Position numbers and translations under genes: made by a program
The notes under the pieces: generated by a model
The model's input: the letters and a program-made list of their open reading frames with translations, nothing else
The model's database searches: none
Told to the model about the DNA's origin: nothing
Assembly: GCA_947488235.1 (NCBI GenBank)
Contig: CANLAQ010000014.1
Span: 1-55,669, forward strand
DNA length: 55,669 bases
Origin: Flavobacteriales bacterium
GTDB lineage: Bacteria; Bacteroidota; Bacteroidia; Flavobacteriales_D; Crocinitomicaceae
Reading direction: 5' to 3'
In this document: positions 2,598 through 53,722 of the stretch, piece by piece
Layout: each line of letters opens with the position of its first letter
Numbering within the stretch: position 1 is the first letter of the stretch

Positions 2598-3653
2598 TTG
2601 TTTTCTCATCTAAAAATTCTTGATCTTTCAACGGTACTTGCAGGACCTGCAGTGGCTACTTTTTTTGCTGAATTGGGTGCTCAAGTTTTGAAAATTGAAA
2701 ATAAAAAAGCTCCAGATGTAACCCGATCATGGAAATTAAAAGGAGAAGCAAATGAGAATGTTTCCGCCTATTTTTCAAGCGTAAATTTCTCCAAGAAATA
2801 CACTCAATTAGATTTGTTGAATTCTGATGATTATCAATTTCTCCTGAAATTGGTGGAAGATGCTGACATTCTGATTTCGAATTTCAAATTTGGTGATGCA
2901 GAAAAACTTAAGGTATCCGATAAGTTATTACATCAAATTAATCCAAAATTAATCATTGGAAAAATCGAAGGGTTTGGTGCTGCTGAGGATAGAGTTGCTT
3001 ATGATTTGATTCTTCAAGCAGAAACGGGTTACATGTCAATGAATGGTACTCCGGATAGTGGTCCTGTAAAAATGCCCGTTGCACTCATAGATGTTTTAGC
3101 AGCCCATCAACTTAAAGAAGGTTTGCTATTGGCTTTACTTCAAAGGCATTCTCATCCTGTGCCGCAATCTATTTCTGTTTCTCTTTATGATGCTGCTATT
3201 TGTAGTTTATCCAATCAGGCATCTAATTTTTTAATGCAGCATAAAGTCCCCGAGCGCATGGGAAGTCTGCATCCTAATATTGCGCCCTATGGTGAATTGT
3301 TTCAGACTGCTGATCATAAGACCGTCACCTTTGCGATCGGAAGTGATCTGCATTTTGAAAAACTTTGTACTTATTTGAATAAGGTTCAAATTTTTGAAAA
3401 TCCCTTATATAATTCTAATCAAAATAGAGTAGTGCACCGTCAAAGCTTATATGAAGAGCTTCTTCCTGTAATTGCTGCTCTAAATGCTGCTGATTTAATG
3501 GTGGACATGAAAAATCTACATATTCCTTTTGGAATGATAAAGAATCTAAAAGATGTGTTTGAGCATCCAGCTGCATTGAAATTAGTGCGCGAAGAAATGA
3601 TTGAGAATACCCCGACAAAAAGAATTACTCAAATAGCATTTAAATGGAATTAA
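2598..3653 (+). CDS. CaiB/BaiF family (class III) CoA transferase
   Basis: Family III CoA transferases move CoA between carboxylic acids. The 351-residue protein begins with the usual LKILDLSTVLAGPAVATFF segment and a FAELGAQVLKIE motif; the probable catalytic Asp lies in VALIDVLAAHQ. At 351 residues it is slightly shorter than the typical 380-400. The start appears to be TTG at 2598: an in-frame stop lies at 2586 and no ATG precedes the conserved start of the domain. The stop overlaps the next gene by 10 bases, suggesting co-transcription with the GNAT gene. The substrate is unknown. Confidence 0.8.
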   Translation: MFSHLKILDLSTVLAGPAVATFFAELGAQVLKIENKKAPDVTRSWKLKGEANENVSAYFSSVNFSKKYTQLDLLNSDDYQFLLKLVEDADILISNFKFGDAEKLKVSDKLLHQINPKLIIGKIEGFGAAEDRVAYDLILQAETGYMSMNGTPDSGPVKMPVALIDVLAAHQLKEGLLLALLQRHSHPVPQSISVSLYDAAICSLSNQASNFLMQHKVPERMGSLHPNIAPYGELFQTADHKTVTFAIGSDLHFEKLCTYLNKVQIFENPLYNSNQNRVVHRQSLYEELLPVIAALNAADLMVDMKNLHIPFGMIKNLKDVFEHPAALKLVREEMIENTPTKRITQIAFKWN

Positions 3654-49836: not shown

Positions 49837-50039
49837 ATCCTTAACGATGTATGTGGAAATTTATTCTTTACAATTTATCCTTTTTGCCCTAAGAATTCTG
49901 TTTTAATATGTTGAATTAATAGCCTTAAAGGGATCAATTTTCTCTTGTCTTTTTTCATTTTTATCTATTGGCCTTGGCCTTATATAAATAATCTCAACTG
50001 CGAGCTGCGCTTTCCTCTTTTAAAAAAATAGCGTAATAC

Positions 50040-50071
50040 TTGTTCAAATAAGAGAGAAATCATTATATTTG
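50040..50071 (+). promoter_or_regulatory. Promoter of tRNA-His
   Basis: TTG (50040-50042), a 21-base spacer, TATATTTG (50064-50071). The tRNA begins 13 bases after the box. Confidence 0.7.
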
Positions 50072-50083
50072 CACTCGTTAAAT

Positions 50084-50158
50084 GGAGGTTGTAGCTCAGT
50101 TGGTTAGAGCGTCGGTTTGTGGTACCGAAGGTCGCGGGTTCGAGACCCGTCTCCCTCC
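50084..50158 (+). tRNA. tRNA-His (anticodon GTG)
   Basis: A cloverleaf with the extra 5' G of tRNA-His (50084) opposite C73 (50158). The D arm GCTC...GAGC, anticodon stem TCGGT/ACCGA with loop TTGTGGT (anticodon GTG), a 5-base variable loop and T arm GCGGG-TTCGAGA-CCCGT are normal. The acceptor stem GAGGTTG pairs with CTCCCTC except at two adjacent pairs (5-68 T/C and 6-67 T/T). Only CA of the CCA end is encoded. Confidence 0.9.
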
Positions 50159-50159
50159 C

Positions 50160-50187
50160 AAAAAGTCCCTTAGTGGGACTTTTTTTG
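50160..50187 (+). terminator. Terminator after tRNA-His
   Basis: AAAAGTCCC (50161-50169), loop TTAGT, GGGACTTTT (50175-50183) with a following T run. Confidence 0.88.
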
Positions 50188-50296
50188 TTTATGTAAAAGG
50201 AGTAGGTTCATTTTAGGGATTTAGAAGCCCTTTGTAAACAAATTCACATTATTTATTAATGTCAGTTTTTCAGACAAGCGAAAATAATATTGTCCT

Positions 50297-50304
50297 TATA
50301 TTTG
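50297..50304 (+). promoter_or_regulatory. -7 promoter element for the DUF1573 gene
   Basis: TATATTTG, a perfect TAnnTTTG, 15 bases before ATG 50320. Confidence 0.5.
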
Positions 50305-50319
50305 TTTAAAATATTGGAA

Positions 50320-50811
50320 ATGAAATCCACTTTTATTTTAATTAGTTTGATGCTTTGTTTTGCTTGTGAAGACAATAAAGAAACTCAAAGCACACAAATT
50401 GTATCCAGTATCGAAGCTAATGAAGACTCAGAACGCGCATTAGAGGCAAATTTAAAGGAAGCTGCTGCAGAGGAAAAAGATCGTTTAGCGCATTTAACGA
50501 CTTTAGTTTTTGATCGATTAGAGCATGATTTCGGAACTATAAAAGCTGAATCCGATAACAGAACAAGTTTTAGAGTAAGCAATACAGGTAAGCACCCATT
50601 GGTGATCTTAAATGTAAAAGCAAGTTGTGGTTGCACCACACCAATTAAGCCCAAAAAACCTATCCCTCCGGGTAAATCAGATGTGATTATTGTGAATTTT
50701 CATCCAGGATATAGTCCAACAAAAGAACAAGAGAAAAAAGTAACCGTTGAAACCAATACTAAGACTGTGTTAACCGTCCTTACGATTAAAGCATTGGTAG
50801 AGAAAAACTAA
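50320..50811 (+). CDS. DUF1573 domain lipoprotein
   Basis: A 163-residue probable lipoprotein. The signal peptide ends in a lipobox-like LCFAC, so Cys16 would be lipidated. The DUF1573 domain follows from about residue 65: HDFGTIKAESDNRTSFRVSN, VKASCGCTTP with its conserved CGCT, and IPPGKSDVIIVNFHPG. This Ig-like domain is common in Bacteroidota envelopes but has no settled role. I chose ATG 50320 instead of the TTG at 50290. The MBL gene starts 5 bases after its stop. Confidence 0.87.
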   Translation: MKSTFILISLMLCFACEDNKETQSTQIVSSIEANEDSERALEANLKEAAAEEKDRLAHLTTLVFDRLEHDFGTIKAESDNRTSFRVSNTGKHPLVILNVKASCGCTTPIKPKKPIPPGKSDVIIVNFHPGYSPTKEQEKKVTVETNTKTVLTVLTIKALVEKN

Positions 50812-50816
50812 GAGCA

Positions 50817-51668
50817 ATGAAAATACATGTAATCGATACTGGTAATTTTAAGTTAGATGGAGGCGCTATGTTCGGCGTAGTTCCTAAGTCGCTTTGGCAA
50901 AAAACCAATCCAGCAGACGAACAAAACATGTGTTCTTGGGCCATGCGATGCTTGCTCATTGAGGATGGAAATCGCTTGATGTTAATCGACACAGGAATTG
51001 GAGACAAGCAAACTGAAAAGTTTTTCGCTCATTATTATTTATATGGCTCAGCCAGTTTATCGCGCAGTCTGCATCAATTAGGCTTTCATGAAGATCAAAT
51101 CACCGATGTGTTTTTGACCCATTTACATTTTGATCATTGTGGCGGCGCGATTGCATGGAATGATTCAAAATCTGCTTATCGGCCGGTATTTAAAAATGCC
51201 AAATATTGGAGCAATGAGCAACATTGGCAATGGGCAACGGTTCCCAATTCAAGAGAAAAGGCCTCTTTCTTATCAGAAAATATTCTTCCCATTCAAGAGA
51301 GTGGTCAATTAGCATTCATTGATCGAAAGGAAAATTTAACCCAAGCTGTTTTTCCAAATATGGATGTTCTTTTTGTTGATGGTCACACCGATAGTATGAT
51401 GTTACCGCATATCTCCTATAAAGGAAAGACGATAGTTTTTATGGCTGATTTATTACCAAGTGTTGGGCACATTCCTTTACCTTATGTAATGGGTTATGAC
51501 ACGCGACCACTCATAACCATGGAGGAGAAGGCTAAGTTTTTAGATAAAGCGGCAGCTGAATCCTACATATTATTTATGGAACATGATAGTGTGAATGAAT
51601 GTTGTACGGTGATGGCGACTGAAAAAGGGGTGCGCTTGAAAGACACCTTCAGTTTTTCTGAGATATAA
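50817..51668 (+). CDS. MBL-fold metallo-hydrolase
   Basis: A 283-residue metallo-beta-lactamase fold enzyme. Metal-binding motifs: THLHFDHCGG (HxHxDH), VDGHTDSMM, MADLLPSVGHIPLPYVMGYD and EHDS near the end. The LIEDGNRLMLIDTGIGDKQ start is typical of lactonase or hydrolase members. Substrate is unknown. It follows the DUF1573 gene by 5 bases, suggesting an operon. Confidence 0.88.
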   Translation: MKIHVIDTGNFKLDGGAMFGVVPKSLWQKTNPADEQNMCSWAMRCLLIEDGNRLMLIDTGIGDKQTEKFFAHYYLYGSASLSRSLHQLGFHEDQITDVFLTHLHFDHCGGAIAWNDSKSAYRPVFKNAKYWSNEQHWQWATVPNSREKASFLSENILPIQESGQLAFIDRKENLTQAVFPNMDVLFVDGHTDSMMLPHISYKGKTIVFMADLLPSVGHIPLPYVMGYDTRPLITMEEKAKFLDKAAAESYILFMEHDSVNECCTVMATEKGVRLKDTFSFSEI

Positions 51669-51793
51669 ATTATTTCTTTCACTTGAGCTATTGATATTTA
51701 ACCCTTCGAGGAACTAATTCATTTGTTTAGGTTAAGACAATCAATTCTTTAGGAAAAAAAGAACACAATTTTCCACTTTTTAATTAAAATCCC

Positions 51794-51823
51794 TTGTTAA
51801 TTCAAAAAATCAGCTTATTTTTG
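51794..51823 (+). promoter_or_regulatory. Promoter of tRNA-Asp
   Basis: TTG (51794-51796), a 19-base spacer, TATTTTTG (51816-51823). About 70 bases of leader with a CCAGA-TGTT-TCTGG hairpin (51861-51874) precede the tRNA. Confidence 0.75.
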
Positions 51824-51901
51824 TATCCGCTTTAGCAATAAGGTTCACACGATTTTGAATCCAGATGTTTCTGGAGATCGTCGTAAGATGGTTAAAAAAT
51901 T

Positions 51902-51975
51902 GGTTTGGTAGTTCAGTTGGTTAGAATACATGCCTGTCACGCATGGGGTCGCGGGTTCGAGTCCCGTCCAGACCG
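51902..51975 (+). tRNA. tRNA-Asp (anticodon GTC)
   Basis: Intact cloverleaf: acceptor GGTTTGG/CCAGACC (one T-G wobble), D arm, anticodon stem CATGC/GCATG with loop CTGTCAC (anticodon GTC), T arm GCGGG-TTCGAGT-CCCGT, discriminator G at 51975. CCA is not encoded. Its 3' half is repeated twice further downstream. Confidence 0.96.
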
Positions 51976-52026
51976 CTCAGAACGCTAAAGCGTTAAAAAG
52001 AAACGCCTCTATGGCTGGAGGATTAG

Positions 52027-52065
52027 AAAACCCTAAGATGTATCAAATATCTTAGGGTTTTTGTT
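52027..52065 (+). terminator. Terminator after tRNA-Asp
   Basis: A 13-base perfect stem, AAAACCCTAAGAT (52027-52039) and ATCTTAGGGTTTT (52049-52061), with a 9-base loop and T-rich tail. Confidence 0.9.
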
Positions 52066-52085
52066 TTTAGTTTAAGTCATACTCT

Positions 52086-52352
52086 ATGGAAGTATATTCA
52101 GTTTATATAATTTGTAATCCCCAAAAAATTTATTACAAAGGCTTTACAAGCGATGTTTTGCGTCGATTGGATGAACATAATTCCTCTCTAGGAAAATACA
52201 CTTCTGAAAAAGGGCCATGGATTTTGGTGTTCCAACATTCATTTATTTTCAAGTCAGAGGCTTTGAAGTATGAACGGATGCTCAAACGTCAAAATCACAA
52301 ATACCTGGATTGGTTAATCGCATCAGATAAAAATGAAATAACTAGAATTTAA
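52086..52352 (+). CDS. Small GIY-YIG nuclease
   Basis: An 88-residue protein that is essentially one GIY-YIG nuclease domain. The two motif halves are SVYIICNPQ (GIY) and IYYKGFTS (YIG); Arg26/Arg27 in DVLRRLDEHN and Glu63 in LKYERMLKR occupy the usual catalytic positions. Single-domain members of this UPF0213/UvrC-like family usually have no known biological substrate. It sits between an intact tRNA-Asp and a damaged tRNA-Asp copy, downstream of a strong terminator, with no clear own promoter. Confidence 0.85.
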   Translation: MEVYSVYIICNPQKIYYKGFTSDVLRRLDEHNSSLGKYTSEKGPWILVFQHSFIFKSEALKYERMLKRQNHKYLDWLIASDKNEITRI

Positions 52353-52356
52353 TGCC

Positions 52357-52406
52357 GCATAAATGGGGTCGTCTCGGCTCAGCCGAGAAGTGCCCGTCCA
52401 GACCGC
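52357..52406 (+). pseudogene. Damaged tRNA-Asp 3' half with inserted palindrome
   Basis: Contains GCAT and ATGGGGTCG (52363-52371) and CCCGTCCAGACCGC (52393-52406), both identical to tRNA-Asp, but the anticodon loop is lost and the T arm (11 bases) is replaced by 21 bases holding TCTCGGCT-C-AGCCGAGA (52372-52388). CCA is encoded after a C, as GCCA at 52405-52408. Confidence 0.75.
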
Positions 52407-52420
52407 CAGAGCTAAAGTTT

Positions 52421-52460
52421 AAACCCTGTAAGTCACTGATTTACAGGGTTTTATTTTGTC
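52421..52460 (+). terminator. Terminator after the damaged tRNA copy
   Basis: AAACCCTGTAA (52421-52431) and TTACAGGGTTT (52441-52451), 9-base loop, T-rich tail. The stem has the same AAACCCT/AGGGTTT edge as the terminator after the intact tRNA. Confidence 0.85.
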
Positions 52461-52472
52461 CTAAAATTCGTC

Positions 52473-52496
52473 GGGGGACGGATTGGGGGACGGATT
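52473..52496. repeat. Tandem 12-base repeats
   Basis: GGGGGACGGATT occurs twice back-to-back (52473-52484 and 52485-52496), GC-rich against AT-rich surroundings. They could be recombinase arm-type sites, which is inference. Confidence 0.7.
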
Positions 52497-52553
52497 TATC
52501 CAAAAAATTTTTCTGAATTTTCGTTTTTCATTGTTGATAACTTTCTTTTTTGC

Positions 52554-52570
52554 AGTCCGGTTCAGACCGC
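52554..52570 (+). repeat. Third tRNA-Asp 3'-end copy
   Basis: AGTCCGGTTCAGACCGC matches the tRNA-Asp end (51960-51976) at 15 of 17 positions. It lies directly next to the stop of the minus-strand gene at 52580, as an attachment-site remnant would. Confidence 0.6.
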
Positions 52571-52579
52571 AAAGGTTTT

Positions 52580-53722
52580 CTAGTCAACAAACTCAACCAA
52601 TTCCCGATTCAATAAAATCTTATGGGTTCCATGAGGGGTGAAGGTGATACTATAATCTTTTGCTTGTTCTTCACCTACCGCATGTTTGAATTTCGCTCGA
52701 ATTCTAGCCATTACTTCATTCATGTTATTATCTGTTATGTCTACCAAAAGATTAATTGCTTGATCAATTAATTCATTGGTTGCCTGATTGCTAATCTGAG
52801 CATAATAGGATCTCAGTTCGGTTTTATAATCGATGAGGTAACTGCGTTGAATTCCTTCTGGATGATTCAAATACAGCAAATAAAGTGCTCTTTCTTTTGG
52901 ATTGAGGTTGATTTGTAAATCTCCCAAATCAGTCAAGTAGATGGTTTTACTCATTCCTCTGATTTCCATTTTACTCAAACGCATTAGTAAATGCGAACGC
53001 TGACGAAACATAATATTGTCCCTGAGTCCATCCATGATATCAAACAATTGACGCAGATGTGTCTTGATCGCATCACGCTTTTCTAAAATCCCAAGGCATT
53101 CAGGACATAGGTCAGCCGTGCGCATTTTCAGGACAATTTGGGTTTTATCGACGCAAAAATCCATCATACATCCACGAGGTTCCTCGTGCACATGATCCAT
53201 AATGTCATTTTGTTTCTGAAACATCATGCTGCGCAAAAGCCAAGATACAATCTCATAAGTTACCGGAAATCTATCGTCAATGGAATTCCCGAAATACCAA
53301 TCCCAATCATTGGTTTGCACAAAGTAGTTTTTCATGGTTGCATCTACACATCCAAACCAATTCTTGTCATTTGGAACATCATTCAAGAGGATGATGTGAT
53401 CGTTTTCATCTATTTGTTGGTCTCTTCTATATTTTTTACAAACTTCAAATAATTGATCCCACGAAAGAGTTGGTCTCCTGTGAGGAAATGAAATTTCTTT
53501 TTTAGGTTCAAATTCTTCTGAGAATAATCCCATCTGCGGAAATGGCTCCTTAGTTTCAAAGTCCTTCTTCGTGTTATAAATTTCTTCTTGATCAGATTCA
53601 GGCATCAAAATAGGTTCAGAAGGTACAAATTCTATGCTGCCTCTGTATTTTCTTAATAAATTAAGCACATTGTTAAAATCTTCAATGTCATAATTTTTAG
53701 AGCGAATTAAATGTACCTTCAT
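52580..53722 (-). CDS. Uncharacterised protein with a His/Cys (probable zinc) motif
   Basis: A 380-residue protein I cannot assign. Residues 1-110 are charged with no clear domain. Residues about 120-210 form a block with NWFGCVDATMKNYFVQTNDW, then His177/His179, EEPRGCMMDFC (Cys185, Cys190) and RTADLCPECLGIL (Cys206, Cys209), resembling a zinc site. Residues about 265-345 include INLNPKERALYLLYLNHPEG and LIDYKTELRSYY, a segment I associate with uncharacterised Bacteroidota proteins. There is no signal peptide. The VWA gene ends 11 bases before its start, so they are probably one operon. Confidence 0.8.
   Translation of the reverse strand: MKVHLIRSKNYDIEDFNNVLNLLRKYRGSIEFVPSEPILMPESDQEEIYNTKKDFETKEPFPQMGLFSEEFEPKKEISFPHRRPTLSWDQLFEVCKKYRRDQQIDENDHIILLNDVPNDKNWFGCVDATMKNYFVQTNDWDWYFGNSIDDRFPVTYEIVSWLLRSMMFQKQNDIMDHVHEEPRGCMMDFCVDKTQIVLKMRTADLCPECLGILEKRDAIKTHLRQLFDIMDGLRDNIMFRQRSHLLMRLSKMEIRGMSKTIYLTDLGDLQINLNPKERALYLLYLNHPEGIQRSYLIDYKTELRSYYAQISNQATNELIDQAINLLVDITDNNMNEVMARIRAKFKHAVGEEQAKDYSITFTPHGTHKILLNRELVEFVD

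Follow-up and report, generated by a model that had tools for sequence, protein, structure and literature searches.

Why does a small nuclease gene lie between an intact tRNA gene and a partial copy of the same tRNA? The window, a 55,669-nt stretch of a Flavobacteriales bacterium (Crocinitomicaceae; contig CANLAQ010000014.1, positions 1 to 55,669, forward strand), raises this question at an intact tRNA-Asp(gtc) gene (51902-51976; ARAGORN; Rfam RF00005, 66.4 bits). An earlier note on this DNA had proposed a minimal unit that moves to tRNA genes without an integrase, from three copies of the tRNA-Asp end and a single-domain GIY-YIG gene between the first two. We observed the following features at this locus:

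51902..51976, plus strand: intact tRNA-Asp(gtc) gene adjoining the unit (ARAGORN, Rfam RF00005)
51963..51976, plus strand: tRNA end copy 1 (B, CCCGTCCAGACCGC), left direct repeat of the unit (repeat comparison)
51977..52085, plus strand: trailer T1 (inverted-repeat listing and sequence)
52086..52352, plus strand: single-domain GIY-YIG nuclease gene, 88 codons (Pfam PF01541, 5e-13)
52363..52371, plus strand: A', tRNA-Asp positions 42-50 (ATGGGGTCG), left part of the broken copy (alignment)
52372..52388, plus strand: hairpin TCTCGGCT-C-AGCCGAGA inside the broken tRNA copy (alignment)
52393..52406, plus strand: tRNA end copy 2 (B, exact 14-base CCCGTCCAGACCGC), right direct repeat of the unit (repeat comparison)
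52407..52466, plus strand: trailer T2, with a terminator-like hairpin at 52421-52451 (sequence; counterpart in the sister genome G065)
52554..52570, plus strand: third tRNA-end-like copy, 15-of-17, outside the unit (segment common to G065)

All three end copies are real, as is the position of the nuclease gene (PF01541, E 5e-13) between copies 1 and 2; neither the exact 14-mer nor the 15-of-17 copy appeared in mononucleotide shuffles of 51977-52600 (each 0/3000). The direct repeat has a period of 430 bp from copy 1 to copy 2. Copy 2 extends beyond the 14 bases described earlier: nine more tRNA bases and a hairpin precede it. This hairpin is a perfect 8-bp stem with a one-base loop, and on alignment it takes, together with AGTG (52389-52392), the place of the 5' half of the T stem and the T loop. 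The hairpin in the broken tRNA copy, which the earlier note had overlooked, is the most telling part of the locus.

The two trailers T1 and T2 differ. The claim that copies 1 and 2 share trailer sequence and similar terminators held for the trailers as a loose likeness and failed for the terminators, as each trailer has its own terminator-like hairpin of different sequence (that of T1 has arms at 52027-52039 and 52049-52061, followed by a T run). T2 probably belonged to the tRNA before insertion, to judge from its sequence, because a nearly identical stretch trails a tRNA-end copy in G065. Copy 3 does not belong to the unit: G065 carries it without a unit at this tRNA, and it lies in a separate downstream segment common to that genome. 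Between T2 and copy 3, GGGGGACGGATT occurs twice in tandem (52473-52496); similar paired motifs lie close to tRNA ends in G065 and at loci L036 and L037, and are perhaps integrase arm sites. Rfam matches near the hairpins (plastid 3'UTR, trpB and BTnc005 families) were below gathering scores and were taken as chance.

Relatives of the nuclease are widespread. A search with the window protein gave matches in 25 of 60 genomes (own included), several of them tandem. Scanning named genomes yielded seven loci, whose titles all read Flavobacteriia, Flavobacteriales, Flavobacterium or Chryseobacterium. We built a search profile, A1, from 25 of the 35 small GIY-YIGs then collected; truncated, extended, near-duplicate or divergent members (L015, L016, L021-L024, L026 and L036-L038) were left out of it, and were still counted in the tally of tRNA neighbours. 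A1 had matches in 156 of the 246 genomes searched from the order and in 160 of 247 from a phylum sample (own genome included in each), counts of protein matches irrespective of a tRNA at each. The window's own genome (2.45 Mb, 100 contigs, 89% complete) carries a single small GIY-YIG gene of this kind and a single such hairpin; its other two GIY-YIG matches sit in open frames of 574 and 598 codons. Arrays were also seen, with five copies every 450 bp in G505 and up to 22 matches in one genome (G322). A scan of viral sequences with a protein of the tRNA-Val family gave 16 pattern stretches and no relative.

We assessed the tRNA neighbours of these genes at 148 loci, which include 100 further places from the matches listed in the order-level search (other than the last three listed, G131:C19, G088:C29 and G236:C287, and all unlisted matches). 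At these loci, 121 of 170 distinct small GIY-YIG genes had an intact same-strand tRNA within 700 bp; for the opposite strand the count was 0 of 170. The result was similar for genes flanked on each side by 700 bp or more of DNA (same strand 90/113, opposite strand 0/113) and at 29 phylum-level loci (same strand for 28 of 37 genes, opposite strand 0). The closest tRNAs included Asp, Val, Phe, Met, Asn, Arg, Ala, Leu, His, Pro and Gly isotypes. Many of the 49 genes without a same-strand tRNA in this range lie close to contig ends. The related small GIY-YIGs at L021, L022 and L026 (..GWSRKKKEAL..) had no tRNA neighbour in the DNA examined, and appear to be a separate subfamily without a tRNA; L026 is at a contig end. 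These tallies strongly support the claim of a minimal, integrase-free unit at tRNA genes, flanked by partial tRNA copies. The earlier note had allowed that no other tRNA-flanked copies might exist; such copies abound.

The window and many of its relatives share one order of elements: A-B (the intact tRNA), trailer, nuclease gene, A', hairpin, B and trailer, where A denotes the part of the tRNA that precedes the affected arm and B the remainder. The same tRNA thus recurs with one arm or loop swapped for a hairpin, across the ORF or on the tRNA's side of it. A loose scan at a score of at least 20 found a broken copy in 74 of 112 gene-tRNA pairs, compared to 0 of 124 with the tRNA reversed; at a score of at least 15, the counts were 80/112 and 7/124. 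Strict review, which asked for a non-native hairpin matched on both sides, retained 60 of the 112 pairs, from nine isotypes.

This review dropped 14 of the 74 pairs with a score of at least 20. The supposed copy is a tRNA end with a terminator after it in L015, L119, L184 and L196, the hairpin is also inside the called tRNA in L116, L126 and L188, and one flank is weak or misplaced in L018, L031, L073, L099, L105, L128 and L139. We think that several of the pairs with a weak or misplaced flank are real. In TGCTGA-type copies only one side matches the tRNA, and none of them is in the strict 60. Of the 112 pairs, 52 escape the strict scan. The window's own pair is among these; the window copy fails the automatic rule because AGTG separates its hairpin from B, and its relative L112 passes.

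Within the strict set (n = 60), the part exchanged for the hairpin overlaps the anticodon loop (39 cases), the T loop (11), the D loop (8) or none of these (2: L168 and L170, under the loop windows used). The hairpin starts with TCC and ends with GGA in 46/60, with one outer base per side allowed. The tRNA lies upstream of the ORF and the hairpin copy downstream in 35 cases; tRNA and copy are both upstream in 16, the copy is upstream and the tRNA downstream in 7, and the order is another in 2. In the reverse direction, a Val-type broken-tRNA pattern had 11 exact matches in the 246 genomes, of which 10 adjoin a GIY-YIG gene. The exception (L269:1501, in G239:C32) lies near a tRNA-Ala with no GIY-YIG gene in the DNA examined, which suggests a relic or a non-autonomous unit.

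Other hairpin arrangements were seen beside these. Two Flavobacterium loci (L039:2920-3290 and L040:2900-3330) carry a piece, GGTTTAGTAGT..TGAAAAGC, on both flanks of the nuclease gene just downstream of tRNA-Asp, plain on one side and hairpin-bearing on the other. In L034, a larger double hairpin (CCCGACGC..GTCGGG..) sits in the loop of a small stem of T1, in both trailer copies (1815-1864 and 3360-3409); it is a hairpin-in-loop insertion without a nuclease gene.

To compare sites with and without the unit, we searched 86 genomes of the genus (the window's own among them) for the tRNA-Phe of G015 and its upstream flank. We inspected the 14 longest-matching loci; the remaining genomes matched mostly across the tRNA alone. 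Among the 14 were 5 filled sites, 6 empty sites, 2 with a remnant of the ORF start only and 1 cut by a contig end:

Filled: G015 (two full units and one truncated), G196, G080, G200, G199
Empty: G204, G031, G069, G035, G519, G002
ORF-start remnant only: G521, G202
Cut by contig end: G526

Four more filled tRNA-Phe sites lie outside the inspected 14 (L008, L092, L101 and L114). The arrangement is not fixed in all relatives, and it was fixation that the earlier note had set against its own proposal; filled, empty and remnant sites within one genus, like the tandem arrays, support the mobile unit.

The filled site of G199 differs from the empty site of G031 by one 328-bp insertion after the tRNA, without an integrase. 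Nothing lies in the insertion beyond a repeated tRNA end, a trailer, the ORF, the hairpin and some ten bases of tRNA. The aligner places it in the T loop, and any point of the repeat of tRNA end and trailer fits equally well. Beyond it, the flank aligns closely to G031 for ~80 bases and then patchily. The tRNA-Phe beside the unit in G199 is identical to that of G031 (one pair compared). Trailers 1 and 2 carry the same spacer variant within each of the 5 filled sites, and the variants differ between genomes. Matching trailers mean duplication on insertion or later conversion, and their identity within a genome is equally compatible with gene conversion and with a fresh insertion. The two full units of G015 have a period of 329 bp and do not differ in their nuclease genes; the third, truncated copy of that genome carries a different trailer.

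At the window's own site, the sister genome G065 has 98.1% DNA identity over 1815 bp, which breaks off precisely at the final tRNA base; the two become similar again at copy 2. Here G065 has a 13.5-kb island (L201:1816-15362) with an integrase-like gene, whose protein has Arm-DNA-bind_5 and Phage_int_SAM_5 domains. Because this island occupies the same tRNA-Asp, G065 documents that the unit is absent but does not provide a clean empty site. The island also encodes an Eco57I/MmeI-like restriction-methylation protein. Close relatives of the window unit at L035-L038 had no intact tRNA in the DNA examined and are truncated in L036-L038; L038 begins at a contig end, and the units of L036 and L037 adjoin an integrase-like gene (judged by eye). 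This suggests that these units were stranded by island insertion.

The nuclease itself resembles repair-type proteins. Eight residues are invariant in 25 aligned members, the window included (Y7, Y17, G19, R27, H31, T39, E63 and K67), and some of them presumably have the catalytic roles known from other GIY-YIG enzymes. Pfam gave no second domain within the 88 residues, and the AlphaFold2 model of the window nuclease has a mean pLDDT of 88.5. Profile comparison with solved proteins placed UPF0213 (1zg2, 1e-17) and SLX1 (3e-9) nearest, and I-TevI (0.019) and UvrC (0.19) gave only weak or marginal matches. The top eight Foldseek matches are UPF0213 and SLX1, of which only two UPF0213 structures were under E 0.001. 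GIY-YIG is a fold of homing nucleases, and SLX1 is a branched-DNA nuclease. No family was found for the window nuclease in NCBIfam. Reading frames are broken in a few members (L024, L148 and L152), and some ORFs extend into tRNA sequence (L025).

We next set hairpin and tRNA against the nuclease tree. On a protein tree with few columns and many unresolved forks, where shared descent inflates contrasts in change counts, hairpin class took 9 changes, where 300 shuffles averaged 34.6 and never fell below 29, with classes set by eye from the stem (68 rows, score at least 15; 14 'other' rows dropped). On the same 68 rows, tRNA isotype took 16 changes compared to 47.4. The tRNA label over 145 rows (14 labels, 'none' and 'odd' included) took 50 changes compared to a shuffled mean of 101.7, with 0 of 200 shuffles as low; without 'none' and 'odd' it took 25, a count without a shuffled comparison. 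Arm position gave 17 changes compared to 25.9, a weak test. The TGCTGA-type hairpin, found in one clade, accompanies Met, His and Val tRNAs. Since one clade's hairpin type goes with different tRNAs, the hairpin seems to belong to the nuclease, and the tRNA seems to be the exchangeable part. The stem of the window hairpin recurs in its relatives L034, L035 and L112.

Overall, we consider it fairly likely that the window holds one member of a family of single-gene units, each a GIY-YIG gene with a hairpin-interrupted tRNA copy, that spread by nuclease-driven insertion. We infer that the nuclease drives the movement of the unit, with the hairpin and not the intact tRNA gene as its target. In the mechanism that we propose, the SLX1-like nuclease would cut the hairpin of its own unit, not the intact tRNA gene; extruded as a cruciform or folded in a single strand, the hairpin would be a branched substrate of the kind on which SLX1 relatives act. 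The freed ends would carry tRNA sequence and could pair with a matching tRNA gene, and repair would leave the unit at that gene beside one intact tRNA. Arrays, deletions and truncated copies could then arise when the B-trailer repeats recombine. The hairpin is preferred as the target for three reasons: the unaltered intact tRNA offers no self-protection, branched-DNA nucleases are among the relatives of the enzyme, and hairpin and nuclease are associated on the tree. Taken further, and held tentatively, the units may represent a new class of transposable element, in which an SLX1-type GIY-YIG protein would serve as a transposase that cuts its cognate hairpin and the hairpin-split tRNA copy would serve as the end; each jump would leave the host tRNA intact at low cost to the cell, and clades would have swapped tRNA targets and kept the hairpin.

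The nuclease might instead home by cutting the intact tRNA gene, with the hairpin as the mere mark of a resistant scar. Homing is possible, if rather unlikely: GIY-YIG is established as a homing nuclease fold (PMC1564403), presence and absence occur at the same site within one genus, and the choice of tRNA is clade-specific. Against it, filled G199 and empty G031 have the same tRNA sequence, and a carrier would thus be expected to cut its own gene. The relatives of the nuclease are SLX1 and UPF0213 and not I-TevI, its 88 residues carry no second Pfam domain, and the tracking of nuclease clade by hairpin type would be left unexplained. A passive origin is less probable still, in which ordinary recombination between tRNA-end repeats copied the units, or integrase islands with the same tRNA end as their site carried them, and the nuclease was incidental. 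The difference of 328 bp between G199 and G031 consists of the unit only, and such copying creates neither a junction hairpin nor a spread to many isotypes. The domain-typical residues are invariant in 25 members, though a few frames are broken (L024, L148 and L152). In favour of passive copying, tRNA-Asp is an island site, occupied in G065 by the 13.5-kb island with its integrase-like gene; L035-L038 are whole or truncated units without an intact tRNA in the DNA examined; and unequal recombination can yield tandem arrays.

We find least reason to expect a role at the RNA level, which we regard as very improbable. Here the protein would act on the tRNA or on a transcript of the broken copy, as with a decoy or a toxin and its guard RNA, and the location would reflect co-transcription. 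The strictly same-strand arrangement, the ORFs that run into the tRNA (L025) and the retention of much of the tRNA in broken copies agree with this. However, characterised GIY-YIG enzymes, to our knowledge, act on DNA, a terminator-like hairpin separates the tRNA from the ORF in the window, and there is no fixed transcript order (copy and tRNA both upstream in 16/60, copy upstream and tRNA downstream in 7/60). Nuclease-driven insertion, with the hairpin as the target, remains our preferred reading.

We also compared the unit with known kinds of mobile element. The defining features of homing genes, introns, REP/RAYT, IS200/IS605 and integrase elements are established knowledge, and the unit departs from each kind tested in at least one of them. 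Free-standing GIY-YIG homing genes of the I-TevI lineage are alike in having a single nuclease gene, a fixed target and presence or absence at the same site; a nuclease of the homing fold is present in the unit (PF01541, typical residues invariant in 25 members). However, the unit leaves its target intact and carries a hairpin-broken copy of it, and its protein is single-domain and SLX1/UPF0213-like. The altered, cutting-resistant target of a homing-gene carrier is absent, as the tRNA-Phe of G199 equals that of G031 (one pair). No group I intron was found in an Rfam scan of 50000-53000, which gave two tRNAs and weak matches below gathering scores.

Tyrosine-integrase islands at tRNA genes also repeat the tRNA end on both sides and keep an intact tRNA, and the direct repeat of the tRNA 3' end is present at both ends of the unit. 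In contrast to these islands, the unit is 328-430 bp long and has no integrase, for which there is no room beyond the nuclease ORF in the 328-bp G199 and 430-bp window units, and its tRNA copy is hairpin-broken in an arm or loop. The SLX1/UPF0213 nucleases are alike in fold and sequence. Prokaryotic members of the Slx1 family are described in PMC1564403 as minimal variants without auxiliary domains, and this 2006 survey infers strong conservation and mainly vertical descent with few exceptions. Compared to the family as surveyed there, the unit genes are present in multiple copies, have a patchy distribution and are linked to tRNA copies. The main text of PMC1564403 has no word beginning with 'Bacteroid' or 'hairpin'. 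We found no description of such units in the open-access literature.

If the proposal is true, these units would be a very common and apparently unnamed mobile element, hitherto annotated as scattered GIY-YIG genes, and an unusually small one. A repair-type nuclease of fewer than 100 residues could then serve as a transposase, partial tRNA copies in these genomes would be accounted for, and the units would offer a natural tool for harmless insertion at tRNA genes.

REP/RAYT and IS200/IS605 systems are alike in that small palindromes are tied to a cognate small nuclease and matched to its clade. The unit differs from them in that its hairpin lies within a tRNA copy and in that it has no HUH (Y1) transposase; GIY-YIG is the only recognisable protein in it. 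REP-like dispersal of the window hairpin was rejected, since the hairpin occurs once in its own genome with up to one mismatch allowed. A REP-like palindrome that resembles the unit hairpins, TCCCGATAGCTATCGGGA, occurs exactly at at least 11 places in another genome, G119. Hairpins of the TCCCGA..TCGGGA class, to which the window hairpin belongs, outnumber their reversed control in some other genomes, with 31 against 3 in G119, and do not exceed it in the window's own genome, with 3 against 6.
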